Shown piece by piece: positions 686 to 10,531 of a DNA stretch of 36,659 bases. Position 1 is the stretch's first letter, and every line of letters begins with the position of its first letter. The notes under the pieces are model-generated. The model was given only the letters and a program-made list of their open reading frames with translations, made no database searches and was not told the DNA's origin. The position numbers and the translations under genes were made by a program. Location: the NCBI GenBank assembly GCA_009377795.1, contig WHTJ01000044.1, positions 1-36,659 on the forward strand, in the 5' to 3' direction. The DNA comes from Propionibacteriales bacterium (GTDB lineage: Bacteria > Actinomycetota > Actinomycetes > Propionibacteriales > Nocardioidaceae).

Positions 686-3600
686 TCAGAGCAGTCGAAC
701 CGTCACCTGGACGTGCGTCGACTCGGCGCCCAGGTAGCTGCCGTTCTCCACGTGGACCGCCCAGAAGGTGGAGGTCGTCAACGGCCTGTGCTTGAGGCTG
801 AACGTCCCGTTGCCCTCCGTCGTCACCGTCTCCAGCACGCGCGGCGTGCCGTCCCCGGGCTGCACCCAGATCTCGACGGGCTCGCCGGCCACCGGTAAGT
901 CCGGGGCTGCGCGCAGCGTCCCACTGAGCGTGGTTCGGTTCGTGAGCTTGATGCTGTCCGGCTTCGCCTGGAAATCGTCCAGGGTCACCGGGACCGCCGC
1001 CGCCTGCTGGACCTCGACCGCCACCTCGTCGGACACCTGCTGCGATCCGTCGTTCGCCGTGAGCCGCAGCACGTACGGCCCCGCCGCCGAGAACGTCGCC
1101 GTGGTGTCGACGGCGTTCGGATTCCCGAAGGTCACGGTGCCGGGGCCGCTGACCTTGGACCAGGTCGCCGTGGTGGCGCCGGGTGGGATCGGCAGCCCGT
1201 CGTCGGTGACGGTTCCGTCCAAGGACACGGGGTCGGGCATCTGGACGGCCTGGTCGGGTCCCGCGTTCACCACCGGTGGGGAGTTCGGCGCCAGCGGTCG
1301 TGTCCTGAACTGGAGCAGCAGGACGGGCGGCGCCAGGCCGTCCTTGGCCTCTGCCGTACGCCGGCCGGTGCCGTCGATCAGGAAGCTGACCGCGTTGCCC
1401 TGCGCCCATCCCGGCCGGTCCACGATCTCCTGAAGGATGTCCTTGAGCTCAGGGGTCTGCTGGCCGACGCCCGCCTCACCGATCAGGCTCCACGCGGGCG
1501 GGCTCCACGGCACCGTCGTCGACGCGATGCTGGACAGCCGCGCGGACACATCGCCAGTCCGGCCGCCGACATACTGTGTCGCGTTGTCCGCCGCCTCACC
1601 GCGGATGGTGAACGCCGCCGCGTCGGTGCCGACTTCGTCGACCTTGAACTGGATCTTTGCGCTGACGATCTCGCCGCCCTGCGGCACCGGCAGGCCGGTG
1701 AACCGCAGTCCGTCGAGCACGTCCTCCGGAGTCGGAGGGCCGTCGTGCCCGAGCTCGACGTCGGCACTGGTGAGGTAGACGTACCGGTCGTTGCCGCCGC
1801 CGATGTACTCCATCGCGTCGTCGGCACCGTGCGAGATCGGGATCTGCGTCGTCCGGACCCCGCCTACCGGGTAGACGTCGACGGCGACGTCGTCGAAACC
1901 GGCCAGCGCGCTGTCGTTCGCGGTCATCCGCAGGACGTACGACCCGGTGGCCGAGAACGTCGCCGTCGTGTTCGCGGCGTTCGGCGATCCGAAGATCACC
2001 GCTCCCGGACCGGACACCATCGTCCAGCTGTAGGTCAGCGTGCCGTTCGGCTCGCCGTCGTCGACGGCGGTGCCCAAGAGGTTCGCCGTCTCCGTGACGT
2101 CGATCATCTGGTCCGCGCCGGCGTTGACGGCGGGCGGCCGGTTGGTGATCGGGGCCAGGTTCACCGAGATCTCGTGCAGCACACCGTCGTTCTCTTCGGG
2201 GTGCGAGTTGTTGTCCAGGCCGCGGTCGACGAGGTAGTAGTTGCGGGCGCCGGAGCCATTGCTGGCCGGCGCGATCGTGATGCCGGCGTTCTTGACCGGG
2301 TCGGCGGCCGCGATGTCGATCGTGGTCAGCAGTGAGCCGTTGCGGTCCAGCTCGTAGATCATGTCATTGTCGTCGAGCACCACCACGGTGTCGCGTACCG
2401 CGTCGTACTCGATGCCCTCGGTGTCCTCGGCGCCGAACTTGGCGACGTCGAACTGGGTGACGATGTCGTCACCAGCGGGCGGCACCCCGTTGAACGTGCC
2501 GTTGGGGCCCGGCTGGAGCCGGAACACCTCGGCGCTCACACCGTCGACCAGCCACAGCTCGTCGTGCACCGCGTCGTACGCGACCCCCTCGGGGTCCGTG
2601 AGGCCGAACGTCGACGTCTTGAACTTGCTCGGGCTCCCTCCGGCCGCCGGGACCGTGAACAACGTCTTCTTGTCGTCGTCGGTGTAATAGGTCTGCCCGG
2701 TCGTCGGGTTGTGCGCGACGCCGGTCGGCTCGTTCGACCACGGCACGGTCGTCGTGGTGCTGACGAGAGCGCCCTGGCGGGTCGCCGTGTACACGTTGGC
2801 GCCGGCGTAGAGCGGCATCTCGTCGACCTCGCCGTCGGAGACGATCAGGCGGTCGCCGGCCGGCCGGTAAGCGATGCCCGACGGATCCGGACTCGGGGGG
2901 TTCCAGCTCGACAGGTCGCGGTCGGCCACGAGGGTTCCGCCCTCGGTGACGGCGGATGCCGGTGCGGCCATGGGTGCGGCGAGCGTCACCTCTGCGACCC
3001 GGCCGAGGATGGTCGCGTCACCCAGGTCCGCGACGTAGAGGTGCTGAGTCCGCGGCGCATCGGTCTGGTCGGCACTCGGCCCGAAGTCCATCGCCTGCAG
3101 GTTCGAGATCTGCGCATCGCTCAGGTCGTACGACTTAACGGTACGACCCGCGTCGTCCACCGCGTACAGGTTCGCGGCGTCCTCGTCGGCGGTGTACAGC
3201 AACCCGTCCTCGGGGTTGTAGGCAAGTCCGCGCAGCTCCGCGCCGTCCAGGCTCCGCAGCTCTGTACTGGTGACCGAGCCGCCGGGAGCGATGTGCACGA
3301 TGCGGTCGTCGGTACCGTCCAGCACGTGCCATGTGCCGTCGGTGGAGTACGCCGCACCGGTCGCGTCCCCGAGTCCGCGGGGAGCGGCTGAGTCGCGGAC
3401 CTGCGGGCTCCGGGCGGACAGCTGTTTCCCGGCGACCGCGAGCCGCCTGCCGTCCTCGACCGCGGTGAGGCGCTGCGTGAGCGGGTCGAACGCGACGGTG
3501 GCTCCGTCCGCGATGTCTCGTACGCGGGCCGAGCCGCGCCGGGTCTCACCGGGCGTGAGCTCCACGACCTTGCTGCCTCCGGCCGACGTCGATCCGGTGA

Positions 3601-6830: not shown

Positions 6831-8072
6831 ATGCGTGGGGCTGGTGATCACCTCAGCGTCGGGGAGCGGGTTGCGTTTTACCGCGCGCGGCGCGGGATGA
6901 CGCAGGCGGTCCTGGCGGGTCTTGTTGGTCGCTCTGAGGATTGGTTGAGCAAGATCGAGCGCGGAGAGCGTTCGCTGCGGCGGCTGGACATCGCCGTGGA
7001 GTTGGCGAGGGCGCTTCGGGTAACCGTTGGCGACCTTTTCGGGCAGCCGATTCTTGTTGAGGATGAGTCGGAGCACGCTGATGATGACGTGCCGGCTGTG
7101 CGGGATGCCTTGATGGCTCCGCGCCGTCTGTCCCGTGTGCTGTACGGGCAGCAAACGGCCTACCAGGATCTGAGCCCTGAAGCGGCGTCAGTGCTCGTGT
7201 ACCGGTCGTGGGAGGACTTTCAGCGGGGACGATTGGGGCGGGTGATCACTGCTCTGCCGGGATTGATCCGCTCGGCTCAGCATCTTGAGGACTTGGGCGC
7301 GATGAGCGATGCACAGCGTCGGGGCTGGGCGGTATCGGCCCGGGTGCATCACCTGGCCGCGACCACGCTCGCCAAGGTGGGCGAGGCCGATCTGGCGTGG
7401 ATCGCGGCCGAGCGGTCGATGCAGGCGGCCGATCAGGCGGACGATCCTTTGGTGTTGGCTTCCGCGGCACGGGCGGGAACCCATGCGTTGCTGGCGATCG
7501 GCAGGTACGCCGAGGCTCTGGACCTGGGCGAGACCGCCGCTCGCTGGCTGTGCTCCCAGGTGCAGGACGATGACCCGGAGGCGCTGAGCCTGGTCGGGAT
7601 GTTGTATCTGCGGACCGCGGCCGCGGCCGCCCGCAAGCAGGATCGGAGTATGTGGACCGAGCTGCATTCGCGGGCCGCTGACATGGGCAATCGGCTCGGC
7701 CGGGATGCGAACTATTGGCAGACCGGATTCGGGCCGACGAATGTCACGTTGCACAGGCTCGCGGCGGCGCTCGACCTCGGCGACATCTCTTATGTGGTGG
7801 CGAACGGGCCTGGTGTTGAGGTGGGCCATATGCCGGTCGAGCGTGGGGTGTCGTATCGGACCGACCTTGCCCGCGCGTTCGCGCTCGACGCTCAAGACGA
7901 GGCCGCGCTGTCCGAGCTCCTCACTGCAGAGGAGTCTGCCCCGCAGTTGGTCAGGAACAGCGCCGAGGTGCGGGAGACGGTTCGGGCGATGTATCGCCGC
8001 TCTCCGGTCGCCGCACGCAGTAAATCGTCGCCAGTGATGGGTCTTGCTCAACGCTGCCGGGCGGTTCAGTGA
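6831..8072 (+). CDS. XRE-family regulator with long helical-repeat C-terminal domain
   Basis: The 413-residue protein carries an N-terminal XRE helix-turn-helix (about residues 8-62: VGERVAFYRARRGMTQ, then LVGRSEDWLSKIERGERSL). A long alpha-helical region follows with Ala/Leu-rich TPR-like pairs (ALLAIGRYAEALDLGETAA is typical). This layout is common in actinobacterial sensory regulators in which the helical part binds a ligand or partner. ATGs at 6819 and 6831 are in frame; GGTGG sits just before the second, which is preferred. The stop overlaps the start of the flavoprotein gene (GTGA), so the two are co-translated. It probably controls its own module; no operator could be defined. Confidence 0.8.
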   Translation: MRGAGDHLSVGERVAFYRARRGMTQAVLAGLVGRSEDWLSKIERGERSLRRLDIAVELARALRVTVGDLFGQPILVEDESEHADDDVPAVRDALMAPRRLSRVLYGQQTAYQDLSPEAASVLVYRSWEDFQRGRLGRVITALPGLIRSAQHLEDLGAMSDAQRRGWAVSARVHHLAATTLAKVGEADLAWIAAERSMQAADQADDPLVLASAARAGTHALLAIGRYAEALDLGETAARWLCSQVQDDDPEALSLVGMLYLRTAAAAARKQDRSMWTELHSRAADMGNRLGRDANYWQTGFGPTNVTLHRLAAALDLGDISYVVANGPGVEVGHMPVERGVSYRTDLARAFALDAQDEAALSELLTAEESAPQLVRNSAEVRETVRAMYRRSPVAARSKSSPVMGLAQRCRAVQ

Positions 8073-8611
8073 GCACCGTCGCCGTAGTCGGCTGTGCGGC
8101 GGGGGGAGTGGAGCAGGTGCGCTCCCACCTTGTGCTGCCACTGCGAGCTGATGAACACGTCGTGACCGTCACCCTCACCCCCGCGGCTGCCACATGGTTG
8201 GGCCAGGCGGGCGAGCTCGACCAGCTGGAGGCGGCCACGGGCTTTCCGGTGCGTTGCACGCCTCGTCTGCCCACCGAGCAGAGTCCACACCCGCGCCCGG
8301 ACTTGCTTGTGGTGGCACCAGCCACGGCGAACTCGGTCGCCAAGATCGCCCTGGGGATCTCCGACAACCAAGCACTCACTCTCGTGTGCGAGAACATCTC
8401 AACGACGCCCGTCATCGTCTTTCCACGGATCAACGCAGCACACGCTCGACACCCTGCATGGGAGGGTTACCTGGCGGCCTTGCGCGGCGTTGGAGTGCAT
8501 CTGATCTACGGCGACGACGTGTGGCCGCTTTACGAACCACGCGACGCCCCGTCAGGGCGAGACCTGCCATGGCCGGACATCGTCCGTACGGCGAAACAAC
8601 TCCTCTCCTGA
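8069..8611 (+). CDS. HFCD-family flavoprotein (Dfp/EpiD-like)
   Basis: The 180-residue protein resembles homo-oligomeric flavin-containing Cys decarboxylases and relatives (PPC decarboxylase, EpiD, UbiX fold). It opens with VAVVGCAAGGVEQ. The motif APATANSVAKIALGISDN matches the PxMNxxMW-free flavoprotein subfamily pattern (APAT-N-x-x-K-x-x-x-G-I-x-D), which binds FMN. The classical active-site His of PPC decarboxylases is not obvious, so the reaction is unknown. The GTG start overlaps the regulator's TGA by four bases. Pairing of a flavoprotein with an XRE regulator suggests that a flavin- or redox-linked reaction is sensed or performed by the module. A role in coenzyme A synthesis is unlikely because no synthetase domain follows. 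Confidence 0.8.
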   Translation: MSTVAVVGCAAGGVEQVRSHLVLPLRADEHVVTVTLTPAAATWLGQAGELDQLEAATGFPVRCTPRLPTEQSPHPRPDLLVVAPATANSVAKIALGISDNQALTLVCENISTTPVIVFPRINAAHARHPAWEGYLAALRGVGVHLIYGDDVWPLYEPRDAPSGRDLPWPDIVRTAKQLLS

Positions 8612-8637
8612 CCTGGCTCACATCGATCGGTGAGATA

Positions 8638-8656
8638 CCCGGACAGTTTGTCCGGG
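8638..8656. repeat. Perfect 8-bp hairpin after the flavoprotein gene
   Basis: CCCGGACA (8638-8645), loop GTT and TGTCCGGG (8649-8656) form a strong stem 26 nt after the flavoprotein stop and 64 nt before the next gene. No U-run follows, so it is either a Rho-independent-like terminator of the actinobacterial type, an mRNA-stabilising hairpin inside the module, or a protein-binding site. Confidence 0.6.
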
Positions 8657-8720
8657 CTGACCTGACGTTCCTGACTTTGACTGGCGGTCAATACCCACGG
8701 AGCGAAAGGCAGCAGGTCAA

Positions 8721-8969
8721 ATGGGAGCCCAGGAATCCACAGAGCATGGTGCGGTGCCGAGCCCTCGGGACGCAGGGCACGTGCGGCTGCTCTTCGGGAG
8801 CCACGTGATCGCCGAGTATTGGGCCGACTCGGAACGCGCTGCACTCTACGCGGATGTGATCGGTCGCCGCTTCGCGGGATTGCGGGTGGAGAACGTCCCG
8901 GCCTCTGTTGACCCTGGGCAGCTGGCTCCGCTCCCCGAGGAATGGCTATGGAACCTGCCTCCTCGCTGA
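8721..8969 (+). CDS. 82-residue protein of unknown function
   Basis: This small protein has no family I recognise. It is predicted soluble, with beta-strand-like HVRLLFGSHVIAEYW followed by a helix (DSERAALYADVIGRRF) and a C-terminal WLWNLPP. A purine-rich stretch (AAAGGCAGCAGG) lies 5-16 nt before ATG 8721. It sits between the flavoprotein and primase/polymerase-like genes on the same strand, 109 nt downstream of the former and 147 nt upstream of the latter, so it is probably part of the same module. The codon use is the high-GC pattern of its neighbours. Confidence 0.6.
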   Translation: MGAQESTEHGAVPSPRDAGHVRLLFGSHVIAEYWADSERAALYADVIGRRFAGLRVENVPASVDPGQLAPLPEEWLWNLPPR

Positions 8970-9116
8970 TCCTCGCTCCTTCCGACCCGACCGGGTTCCT
9001 CCAGGAGCATGGTCACGGGCGGAGTTGGTGCCCGATCAACCGAGTGCCCGGTTACAAGTTCTGCCGCATTCAAAAGGGCCGACGATGGTGCATGATGACG
9101 AGCACAGGAGGTGCCG

Positions 9117-9776
9117 ATGTCCCGAACGAATGCACTTGCCAAGGCGGCTCTCGCCTACGCCGAGACCGGTATGCCCGTCCTCCCGGCGTTCCCGCTGACA
9201 TGGTCGGCCTCTGGCCGCCGGGGTCCAATGGGGCGTCGAGCGTGGATCTGTGGCTGCTCAGATCCCTCATGCCGCGCTCCAGGGGCCCATGTTGCGCGCG
9301 ATGCGAACCCGTCCACCTGCAGGGAGGACATCCTCGCCACATGGAACGTGGCGCGGCCGCCGGGCTTGATGCTTGTGCCAGGCGGGTCAGTGGACGTGTG
9401 GGAGGTCGGCTGCGAGATCGGAGCTACCGCTATGCGGCTGCTGGAAGGCCAGCGGCTCAGTGTGTGGCCGCCGACCATGCGGCTGCCGAACGGCCGGTGG
9501 GTGATCATTACGTCCCCACTTCCGGAGGGCCACCCTCTTACCGAGGCGGACGCATCCGTCATACGCCGCCGCAACCACAGAACACCGCTGCTGGTTCCAC
9601 CCTCGCGCACACCAAACGGGCGCTTACGCTGGCTGTGGTCCCCACGGTTCCCGAAAACACCGTTGCCAAATCCACACGTAATCCTGGGAGCCTTGATGAT
9701 GGCATCAGGTCACCTCGGGCATCGTGGTGCGGCCGATGACAACCGCCCGGACGTCGTCGCCGGGTCGCCCGCCTGA
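9117..9776 (+). CDS. Truncated bifunctional primase/polymerase (PrimPol)-like protein
   Basis: The 219-residue protein resembles the N-terminal part of actinobacterial bifunctional DNA primase/polymerase proteins: ALAYAETGMPVLPAFP, a Cys/His patch (CGCSDPSCRAPGAH), a helix ending ATWNVARPPGLMLVPGG, and the strand VDVWEV where family members usually read D-x-x-D. The second acidic position here is Glu and later catalytic residues are not evident, so polymerase activity is doubtful. AGGAGG five nt before ATG 9117 decides the start over an in-frame GTG at 9111. It has no helicase domain and overlaps the next gene by 41 nt. It is either a nucleotide-binding descendant of PrimPol or a degenerate one. 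Confidence 0.6.
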   Translation: MSRTNALAKAALAYAETGMPVLPAFPLTWSASGRRGPMGRRAWICGCSDPSCRAPGAHVARDANPSTCREDILATWNVARPPGLMLVPGGSVDVWEVGCEIGATAMRLLEGQRLSVWPPTMRLPNGRWVIITSPLPEGHPLTEADASVIRRRNHRTPLLVPPSRTPNGRLRWLWSPRFPKTPLPNPHVILGALMMASGHLGHRGAADDNRPDVVAGSPA

Positions 9777-10377
9777 GCGGCACGATCGTTTCCCGCCGCC
9801 ATTCGTTGGCTCCTGGTGCGCCCATGCACGCGATGATCCGATCACGGGTCTGGTCGCGTGGCCCGGTTTCTTCGCGCAACTGCCACGCCTGATGGAGGAA
9901 GCCCTGCGGTACGGTCAGTGTGTCGGACTGGCCATCGGTGACGTCGACGACTTGAAGAGTTACGTCGAAGACATGAAGGCTCGCGATGCCCAGTCCTTCG
10001 GGCATCTTGCTGGCAACGCGTTCATGGGCCGGCTGGGAACGATCGCGAGGAACTGGCTGCACGCCGACAGCGTCCACGAAGGCTGCCTGGCGACCTTCGG
10101 CGGCGACGAGGTGGTGCTGGCGTCAGTGACCAAAGGCGGGGCAGCTTTCCTCCCCCAGGTCCATCGGCTTCGTGATGCGCTGCGCAGCGCCCTGCCACGT
10201 ACCGTTGCATTTGCCGCCACCGTCATAGAGCCGCAGACGATCCCCGGTGAGATCACGGGCGACCACTGGTGGCGGGAATTCTGTGTCCACGAGATCGGAA
10301 GGGTCGAGCGCGCGCTTTTCGAGAACAAGGAAGCTCGCCGCCGCGGACATCAGGAAGACAGCATCGTGGCCGTCTGA
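9736..10377 (+). CDS. Stand-alone GGDEF-like nucleotide cyclase domain protein
   Basis: The 213-residue protein is nearly all one GGDEF-type domain: DPITGLVAWPGFF (usual D-x-L-T-G-L-x-N-R-x-x-F), the metal-binding strand GDVDDLK, GHLAGNAFMGRLG (usual G-H-x-x-G-D-x-x-L), and the signature FGGDEVV. The metal aspartate, lysine and GGDE are kept. The I-site RxxD, a sensor domain, PAS, REC and membrane segments are absent. It is therefore a cytoplasmic cyclase-fold enzyme of unknown product, possibly c-di-GMP or another (oligo)nucleotide. GTG at 9724 and ATG at 9736 are both possible starts; the ATG is preferred. It starts inside the end of the PrimPol-like gene in another frame, implying coupling. 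Confidence 0.7.
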   Translation: MTTARTSSPGRPPERHDRFPPPFVGSWCAHARDDPITGLVAWPGFFAQLPRLMEEALRYGQCVGLAIGDVDDLKSYVEDMKARDAQSFGHLAGNAFMGRLGTIARNWLHADSVHEGCLATFGGDEVVLASVTKGGAAFLPQVHRLRDALRSALPRTVAFAATVIEPQTIPGEITGDHWWREFCVHEIGRVERALFENKEARRRGHQEDSIVAV

Positions 10378-10478
10378 CCAGGAAGCAGAGCCATGTCCGA
10401 GATCGCCGCGAAACATTGAGAGAGCACGGCTCCTTCGCCGGCGTAGCGGGCAATCAGACGGCCAGAGCCAGCCCTTGA

Positions 10479-10503
10479 CCTGGACCGGGGCCTCCTGTCC
10501 AGG
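10479..10503. repeat. 7-bp inverted repeat between convergent genes
   Basis: CCTGGAC (10479-10485) and GTCCAGG (10497-10503) flank an 11-nt loop in the 154-nt gap between the GGDEF-like gene and the end of helR. It may mark transcript ends, but no U-run follows on either strand. A short frame ending in SRHKLDEVLADVRSW at 10543 and a ribosome-site-preceded ATG at 10393 that stops after eight codons hint that the gap holds decayed coding sequence. Confidence 0.4.
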
Positions 10504-10531
10504 CACAAGCTCGACGAGGTCTTGGCCGACG

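Follow-up and report, generated by a model that had tools for sequence, protein, structure and literature searches.

The stretch of DNA analysed here, referred to below as the window, comprises 36,659 nucleotides (nt) of contig WHTJ01000044.1 from a Propionibacteriales bacterium of the Nocardioidaceae (assembly GCA_009377795.1). It contains a block of five same-strand genes that encode an XRE-type helix-turn-helix (HTH) regulator, an HFCD flavoprotein, a small protein, a degenerate PrimPol-like protein and a lone GGDEF-like protein (Table 1). An earlier note, made from the letters of this DNA alone, had read the block as a single undescribed module with the layout of a nucleotide-signalling or phage-defence locus. 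Its description of the genes agreed well with our results: all five open reading frames (ORFs) are present, the start/stop overlap and the 41-nt overlap are both exact, and the types that it gave to the XRE, flavoprotein, PrimPol-like and GGDEF-like proteins are backed by Pfam matches, the small ORF having no family. The five genes are, however, two separately conserved units lying side by side and not one module. We focus on the second of these units, the PrimPol-like/GGDEF-like pair, as a candidate nucleotide-synthesising unit.

Table 1 Features of the five-gene block, in window positions (aa, amino acids)
Feature	Position	Strand	Evidence and remarks
XRE-type HTH regulator, 413 aa	6831..8072	+	HTH_31 2.7e-11; phrog_5823 1.9e-104; first gene of the XRE-flavoprotein pair
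HFCD flavoprotein, 180 aa	8069..8611	+	Flavoprotein PF02441 2.3e-12; GTG start
GTGA stop/start overlap of the XRE and flavoprotein genes, 4 nt	8069..8072	+	sequence
Small protein, 82 aa	8721..8969	+	no Pfam family match
AGGAGG ribosome-binding site ahead of the PrimPol-like gene	9106..9111	+	sequence
Degenerate PrimPol-like protein, 219 aa	9117..9776	+	Prim-Pol PF09250 1.4e-7
Lone GGDEF-like protein, 213 aa	9736..10377	+	GGDEF PF00990 8e-6
Overlap of the PrimPol-like and GGDEF-like genes, 41 nt	9736..9776	+	sequence

The division into two units emerged from the comparison with other genomes (G numbers below) and the loci read in them (L numbers). The GGDEF-like protein was matched at E <= 1e-6 in 3 of 245 genomes of the order, namely the window genome and two Kribbella genomes (G066 and G078); the pair occurs in 2 of 38 Kribbella genomes. 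Seven of 394 genomes of the class had a match; two of these were generic GGDEF proteins (G321, G432) and two belonged to a sister group described below (G396, G551), so that the window, G330 and G406 remained. The resulting clade has five genomes, and in each of them the PrimPol-like gene lies directly upstream of the GGDEF-like gene; the two genes overlap not only in the window but also in Kribbella (56 nt in L009). Viewed from the other side, close PrimPol relatives (E < 1e-20, a cut-off of our own choosing) were found in 4 of the 394 class genomes (window, G330, G397, G406), three of them with an adjacent GGDEF-like gene. With the window left out, both genomes with the GGDEF-like gene are among the three with the PrimPol-like gene out of 393, which by hand arithmetic would happen by chance with a probability of about 4e-5. 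This figure cannot be taken at face value, G330 and G406 belonging to one family, and direct adjacency is the stronger evidence. The PrimPol-linked GGDEF-like proteins also form a clade of their own with support of 100/99 (four rows, G406 not being in the tree), in a tree that does not resolve the branching among its deeper rows. Overall, the pair is very rare and patchily distributed.

The XRE and flavoprotein genes are conserved independently of this pair. Flavoprotein relatives at E <= 1e-10 were found in 119 of the 394 class genomes, and a relative of the XRE regulator (58-64% identity) lies immediately upstream of the flavoprotein gene in 11 of the 13 closest loci (L074-L086, 56-64% identity; the two without it are L074 and L082). 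Wherever both genes were called (nine of nine loci), they overlap by 4-19 nt, lengths that are upper limits since starts were set at the first in-frame start. The XRE-flavoprotein arrangement is common in actinobacteria, its two genes being translationally coupled. In the 18-19 kb read around the PrimPol-GGDEF pair in the four other genomes, no flavoprotein was matched at 1e-5, which led us to reject the five-gene module as a single unit, and the only listed flavoprotein of G406 lies about 3 Mb from its pair. The conserved neighbourhood for which the earlier note had suggested searching is thus found for each of the two pairs and not for the five genes together.

The GGDEF-like protein is a lone cyclase-fold domain, as the earlier note had proposed. 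GGDEF is its sole Pfam match, and its predicted structure (AlphaFold; predicted local distance difference test, pLDDT, 88; 19 sequences) aligned to 4zmm_A over 155 residues with a Z score of 18.4 and a root-mean-square deviation (rmsd) of 2.6; 4h54_A was matched with the same Z score of 18.4. Residues D69, D71, K74, G89-H90, the GGDE signature at 122-125 and K198 are invariant over the 21 rows of the family alignment, and alignment to SadC shows that the metal-binding Asp D69 and the G122-E125 signature are kept. The GHxxGD motif reads GHLAGN in the window, its final Asp being replaced by Asn in 19 of 21 rows and by Cys in 2, and retained in none. It is this Asp that reads guanine in PleD, and the generic GGDEF proteins of L014, L015 and L017 retain it. 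The family also carries an insertion between the DxDxxK and GH motifs, and inspection by eye of the 21 rows revealed no RxxD inhibitory site (I-site) ahead of TFGGDE. Judged by its residues, the GGDEF-like protein is probably an active nucleotide-making enzyme. We did not file it simply as a canonical cyclic di-GMP (c-di-GMP) cyclase, as the base-reading residue speaks against this; c-di-GMP is kept as a possible product.

Its partner retains the fold of a primase-polymerase and lacks residues of motifs II and III. The codon-position GC of the PrimPol-like ORF (0.66/0.61/0.73) is less typical than that of the small ORF (0.76/0.52/0.72), which resembles the neighbouring genes, and a simple gene caller omitted it; we consider it a real gene because it matches a Pfam family and has relatives in other genomes. 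The predicted model (pLDDT 81, 9 sequences) aligned to the pRN1-type PrimPol 3m1m over 158 residues (Z 8.4, rmsd 3.8). The top structural matches were 3m1m and 1ro0, other archaeo-eukaryotic primase (AEP) polymerases scored Z of about 5-5.5, and the best Foldseek E value was 4e-4. The motifs were read against the canonical Prim-Pol of L008 (PF09250, 4.6e-40), their roles being taken as general knowledge. The motif III Asp is absent from all nine rows and the motif II His from eight (L067 has His), the window having Val at the motif II His position and Arg at that of the motif III Asp, while the DxD of motif I lies in a gap of the alignment, with a D..E pair nearby in six of nine rows, including the window and not Kribbella. 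The “degenerate” label given by the earlier note is therefore well founded. That the protein is an active primase/polymerase, or the replication Prim-Pol of an actinomycete integrative and conjugative element (AICE), is thought unlikely, since motifs II and III are lost.

More distant PrimPol-like relatives (E <= 1e-4) occur in 26 of the 394 class genomes, of which 17 belong to genus g56 (Streptomyces); a plasmid search with the PrimPol-like and small proteins gave no match. An NsdA-family regulator gene stands beside the PrimPol-like gene in 14 of 23 distant-relative loci, counting the query locus, all of them in g56. At these 14 loci (among L048-L067 and L071), the degenerate PrimPol-like gene is flanked on its other side in 12 cases by a gene, common to 12 of the 23 loci, which we take from its sequence to be ftsY. 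In G334 and G426, which belong to a single genus in a distant family, the PrimPol-like gene is divergent from an XRE gene (34-36% identity to that of the window) that is followed by a flavoprotein gene; outside the window, the three were seen together in this one genus. A PrimPol-like gene adjoining a regulator of this general type is thus a recurrent arrangement.

A regulator gene lies near the PrimPol-GGDEF pair in all five genomes, in keeping with the earlier note, and its type varies. In the window, it is the XRE gene, which precedes the pair in the same orientation and is separated from it by the flavoprotein and small genes; in Kribbella, it is an NsdA-family gene (NF053720; 191 and 199 bits against a cut-off of 75) divergent from the pair; in G330 and G406, it is a GntR-UTRA gene, likewise divergent. 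NsdA-family genes are sparse in the two Kribbella genomes (5 matches per 8.4 Mb in G078 and 16 per 8.9 Mb in G066), so this neighbour is unlikely to be there by chance, and the two Kribbella loci are one inherited arrangement. The XRE regulator of the window is not of the NsdA family, scoring 11.7 bits against NF053720. Its C-terminal part appears to be similar to tetratricopeptide repeats (TPR), given that a relative with 36% identity in L104 matches the TPR-like part of NF053720 (1.8e-10). Near the Kribbella unit, we also observed an MvdD-type ATP-grasp gene (Pfam; L009:12865-13827, with a copy 86% alike at L008:12658-13617) beside a gene that reads as acetyltransferase-like, possibly a peptide-modification locus.

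The small protein may belong to the same unit. In a ranking of 17,336 stop-to-stop fragments of the fetched loci, with window copies excluded, the highest score (63) went to an ORF that precedes the Kribbella unit in L008 and, at the same position, in L002. None of 2000 shuffles of this fragment reached that score (best 59); the next scores were 60 (L140) and then 56 for unrelated-looking fragments. The second Kribbella copy scored 48, a level reached by 5 of 2000 shuffles and exceeded by chance fragments scoring up to 56. Because the score of this second copy does not rise above that of chance fragments, the evidence for a relation comes from the L008/L002 copy, from its position and from a profile built on the window sequence and the two Kribbella ones, which recovered one further relative (L140, E 2e-5) beside an NsdA-family gene in G066. 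We consider it probable that the small protein is related to the ORF upstream of the Kribbella pair; in Kribbella, this ORF is separated from the PrimPol-like gene by a 92-aa gene that, judged by eye, is unrelated.

Taken together, the best reading, to which we assign a probability of roughly 40%, is that of a nucleotide-synthesising unit under regulatory control, with the PrimPol-like protein as a putative partner for binding or sensing. The functional core would consist of the PrimPol-like and GGDEF-like proteins (9117-10377), to which the small protein may belong as well, and the overlap of the two genes suggests that their products are probably made together. The residues for two-metal phosphoryl transfer, namely the metal and GGDE residues, are retained in the GGDEF-like protein, and the RxxD feedback site is lacking; this enzyme might produce a (di)nucleotide, cyclic or linear, instead of c-di-GMP or besides it. 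The apparently inactive PrimPol-like protein may bind a nucleotide or nucleic acid and either control the GGDEF-like enzyme or be controlled by it, and the nearby regulator (XRE, NsdA-family or GntR-UTRA) could turn the unit on upon sensing a small molecule. The XRE-flavoprotein pair would then be a second, neighbouring unit, with the XRE protein perhaps regulating both. Seen in this way, the unit looks like a small-molecule switch, and nucleotide signalling, as the earlier note suggested, is a reasonable role to infer for it. A bolder version, which we think quite unlikely, holds that this is a novel signalling unit in which a dead PrimPol senses nucleic acid or nucleotides and gates a co-translated GGDEF-fold enzyme of non-guanine specificity under the control of ligand-sensing regulators, the enzyme family having been separately recruited to a biosynthetic operon.

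Several observations weigh against a regulated nucleotide-synthesising unit. The PrimPol frame is broken in G330 and both genes show a frame change in G406 (2 of the 5 genomes), leaving open pairs in three genomes only, the window and the two Kribbella; G397 has a broken close PrimPol relative on contig C4:60985-61604 (L072) without a GGDEF-like match, which is a decayed copy. Although some broken frames may be assembly errors, broken pairs argue against a needed or essential function and fit mobile cargo. The type and orientation of the regulator vary, which weakens the regulatory link. As motif I is hard to align, total catalytic loss in the PrimPol-like protein is no more than likely. The sister group operates without PrimPol in an operon that looks biosynthetic. 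Finally, no effector or receptor gene was recognised.

The sister group comprises 19 loci (16 genome contigs and 3 of 5 matching plasmid records) whose GGDEF-like proteins share 33-47% identity with that of the window. Their usual gene order is radical S-adenosylmethionine (SAM), enolase-like, HAD, GGDEF-like, an extra C-terminal domain or gene with a weak OmdA match, and phosphoketolase, often with PhyH and methyltransferase genes; L006 instead has the GGDEF-like gene in first place. All 16 genome loci had enolase-like, HAD and phosphoketolase matches, and 15 had a radical SAM match (L035 starts near a contig end). As for the plasmid loci, L005 was the source of the queries, L004 has all four partners, and L006 has three, its annotated HAD gene giving no match at 1e-5. 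No PrimPol-like gene was found in any of the 19 loci, and hence none adjoins the GGDEF-like gene (0 of 16 genome and 0 of 3 plasmid loci). Occurring on both chromosomes and plasmids (L005:7070-15010, L024-L039, L004, L006), this operon resembles an uncharacterised biosynthetic cluster that uses a GGDEF-fold enzyme.

The conserved sister operon invites the alternative that the GGDEF-like family is a nucleotidyl-transfer or cyclising enzyme of a specialised-metabolite pathway, and that the window copy is a stripped-down version. This copy would produce a small metabolite resembling a nucleotide, or activate one, and the PrimPol-like protein would serve as a scaffold. We regard this biosynthetic alternative as fairly unlikely. 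None of the sister partner genes lies around the pair in L008, L009, L018, L019, L022 or L023, and the UDP-glucose dehydrogenase, helicase and glycosyltransferase of the window matched nothing in the loci compared. Of the five block genes, the XRE regulator matched sister locus L005, at 31% identity. XRE relatives of the window regulator (31-41%) do lie a few kb upstream in 6 of the 19 sister loci (L005, L024, L026, L027, L032, L034) and downstream in L037; this is weak evidence, because such regulators are common in Streptomyces.

The genomic setting of both pairs raises the question of mobility. Near the flavoprotein gene, 7 of 12 larger loci (L105-L116) had one or more shared clusters of integrase, RepSA, FtsK-type or HTH_17 genes, and Pfam searches with the cluster representatives identified a tyrosine integrase, RepSA (PF20199, 1.8e-144), an FtsK-type protein, GntR regulators and an HTH_17 excisionase-like protein. 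These surrounding clusters are an AICE of the pSAM2 type, and the XRE-flavoprotein pair with overlapping genes recurs as cargo of RepSA-type integrative elements in L105, L107, L108, L114 and L116. Distant relatives of the XRE regulator (about 30-35% identity) occur in 55 phage records, and the flavoprotein query found no relative in the viral contigs searched. The flavoprotein carries the Flavoprotein domain together with a PASANT-like motif (PATANSVAKIA), features of HFCD flavoproteins, and a decarboxylase or flavin mononucleotide (FMN)-binding function is predicted for it. We also observed that a Streptomyces plasmid (L007) bears two flavoprotein genes (2503-3087 and 9956-10528) near an annotated restriction endonuclease, an AIPR protein and an AbiV abortive-infection protein.

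In Kribbella, the L009 copy of the PrimPol-GGDEF pair has a TrwC relaxase gene at a distance of about 3 kb, and a canonical Prim-Pol gene is found less than 7 kb away from the copy in L008. In the window, the GC content of the block is 65-67%, compared with about 69-70% for most of the flanks, and dips to about 65% also occur elsewhere. The genes flanking the block encode a UDP-glucose dehydrogenase and, on the opposite strand, a UvrD-like helicase and a glycosyltransferase. The latter two are adjacent in two relatives (L120, L122). A UDP-glucose dehydrogenase was not matched within 1.5 kb helicase flanks in the loci of 11 relatives (that of L128 is only 34% alike), and so no clean empty site is shown. 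The block probably reached the window genome by horizontal transfer. We rejected an intact AICE as a description of it, as the window has no tRNA and the RepSA and integrase matches of its own genome lie on other contigs; FtsK-type Tra was not searched for in the window.

These data bear on a further alternative, in which the block is cargo without shared function: the XRE-flavoprotein pair would derive from an AICE-like element and the PrimPol-GGDEF pair from another, the two being juxtaposed by chance and partly decaying. The AICE-type clusters near the flavoprotein gene, the TrwC relaxase near one Kribbella copy, the phage-borne XRE relatives and the broken copies in three genomes all fit this account, and extensive pseudogenisation is described for AICE cargo genes in a passage of one study (PMC9513070). 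We nevertheless judge it rather unlikely, since the five ORFs of the window are all open, closely spaced and coupled, and XRE, flavoprotein and PrimPol-like genes occur together in the two genomes of one distant genus.

Phage defence, the other role raised by the earlier note, is without direct support, and the PrimPol-GGDEF pair is not a proven defence system. The idea would be that the pair makes a nucleotide alarm signal upon infection, which the combination of a lone cyclase-fold enzyme with a polymerase-derived partner, a mobile and patchy distribution and frequent decay might suggest. Against it, no effector gene was recognised, and the nearest flanking genes encode the UDP-glucose dehydrogenase and the UvrD-like helicase. 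Eleven PADLOC models (2023 library) hit the regulator, none of them outside its HTH part (best capH, 2.7e-5), and the other four proteins had no match. Similarly, no relative of the GGDEF-like protein was found in phage or viral records at the sensitivity used. We consider a defence role very doubtful.

A regulated nucleotide-synthesising unit remains the reading that we prefer, and the literature search gave it no precedent. In line with the earlier note, which knew of no such system, we found no paper with both GGDEF and Prim-Pol as whole words in a search that left subscription journals mostly outside, and nothing on GGDEF with biosynthetic clusters, on the minimal CRISPR polymerase or on flavin-containing cysteine decarboxylases with HTH proteins. 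The papers retrieved on AICEs with flavoprotein and XRE genes, and on NsdA, were of a general kind. For Prim-Pol together with nsdA, one paper was found, an AICE survey, which in one passage notes large XRE proteins with 27-36% identity to NsdA in Frankia AICEs (PMC3218068). The components are thus known folds, whereas their pairing and the residue change are undescribed as far as the literature was searched. 

Streptomyces and its relatives govern development and antibiotic making through c-di-GMP and NsdA-type repressors. A GGDEF subfamily with a changed base-reading residue, which is coupled to a polymerase-fold partner without apparent activity and frequently lies close to such regulators, would, if this reading is true, offer a route to an undescribed nucleotide product. 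It would also provide a handle on two puzzles, namely the role of degenerate PrimPol-like proteins beside nsdA-type genes and the product of the radical-SAM/enolase/phosphoketolase operon with its GGDEF-like gene.

The two units can be compared with several known systems. With diguanylate cyclases (WspR, DcsBis, SadC, DgcZ, PleD), the GGDEF-like protein shares the fold, the first metal Asp, GGDE and the C-terminal K motif, but it has Asn for the Asp of GHxxGD, an insertion, no RxxD I-site and no sensor domain. With Prim-Pol/AEP proteins such as the pRN1 ORF904 PrimPol, the PrimPol-like protein shares the domain match and the fold, whereas it lacks the motif II His and the motif III Asp and has no helicase or Rep partner alongside. 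The NsdA-linked PrimPol-like genes of Streptomyces belong to the same degenerate family (25-35% identity) and adjoin an NsdA-family regulator, but no GGDEF-like partner was found for them. The XRE-flavoprotein pair is often found on pSAM2-type AICEs, while the window has no tRNA and this contig has no integrase or RepSA match. Finally, a stand-alone nucleotide cyclase in a small mobile locus is the general idea common to mCpol/Cas10-like systems and cyclic oligonucleotide-based anti-phage signalling systems (CBASS); unlike in these, no effector was recognised here, and the only Pfam family matched by the enzyme is GGDEF.

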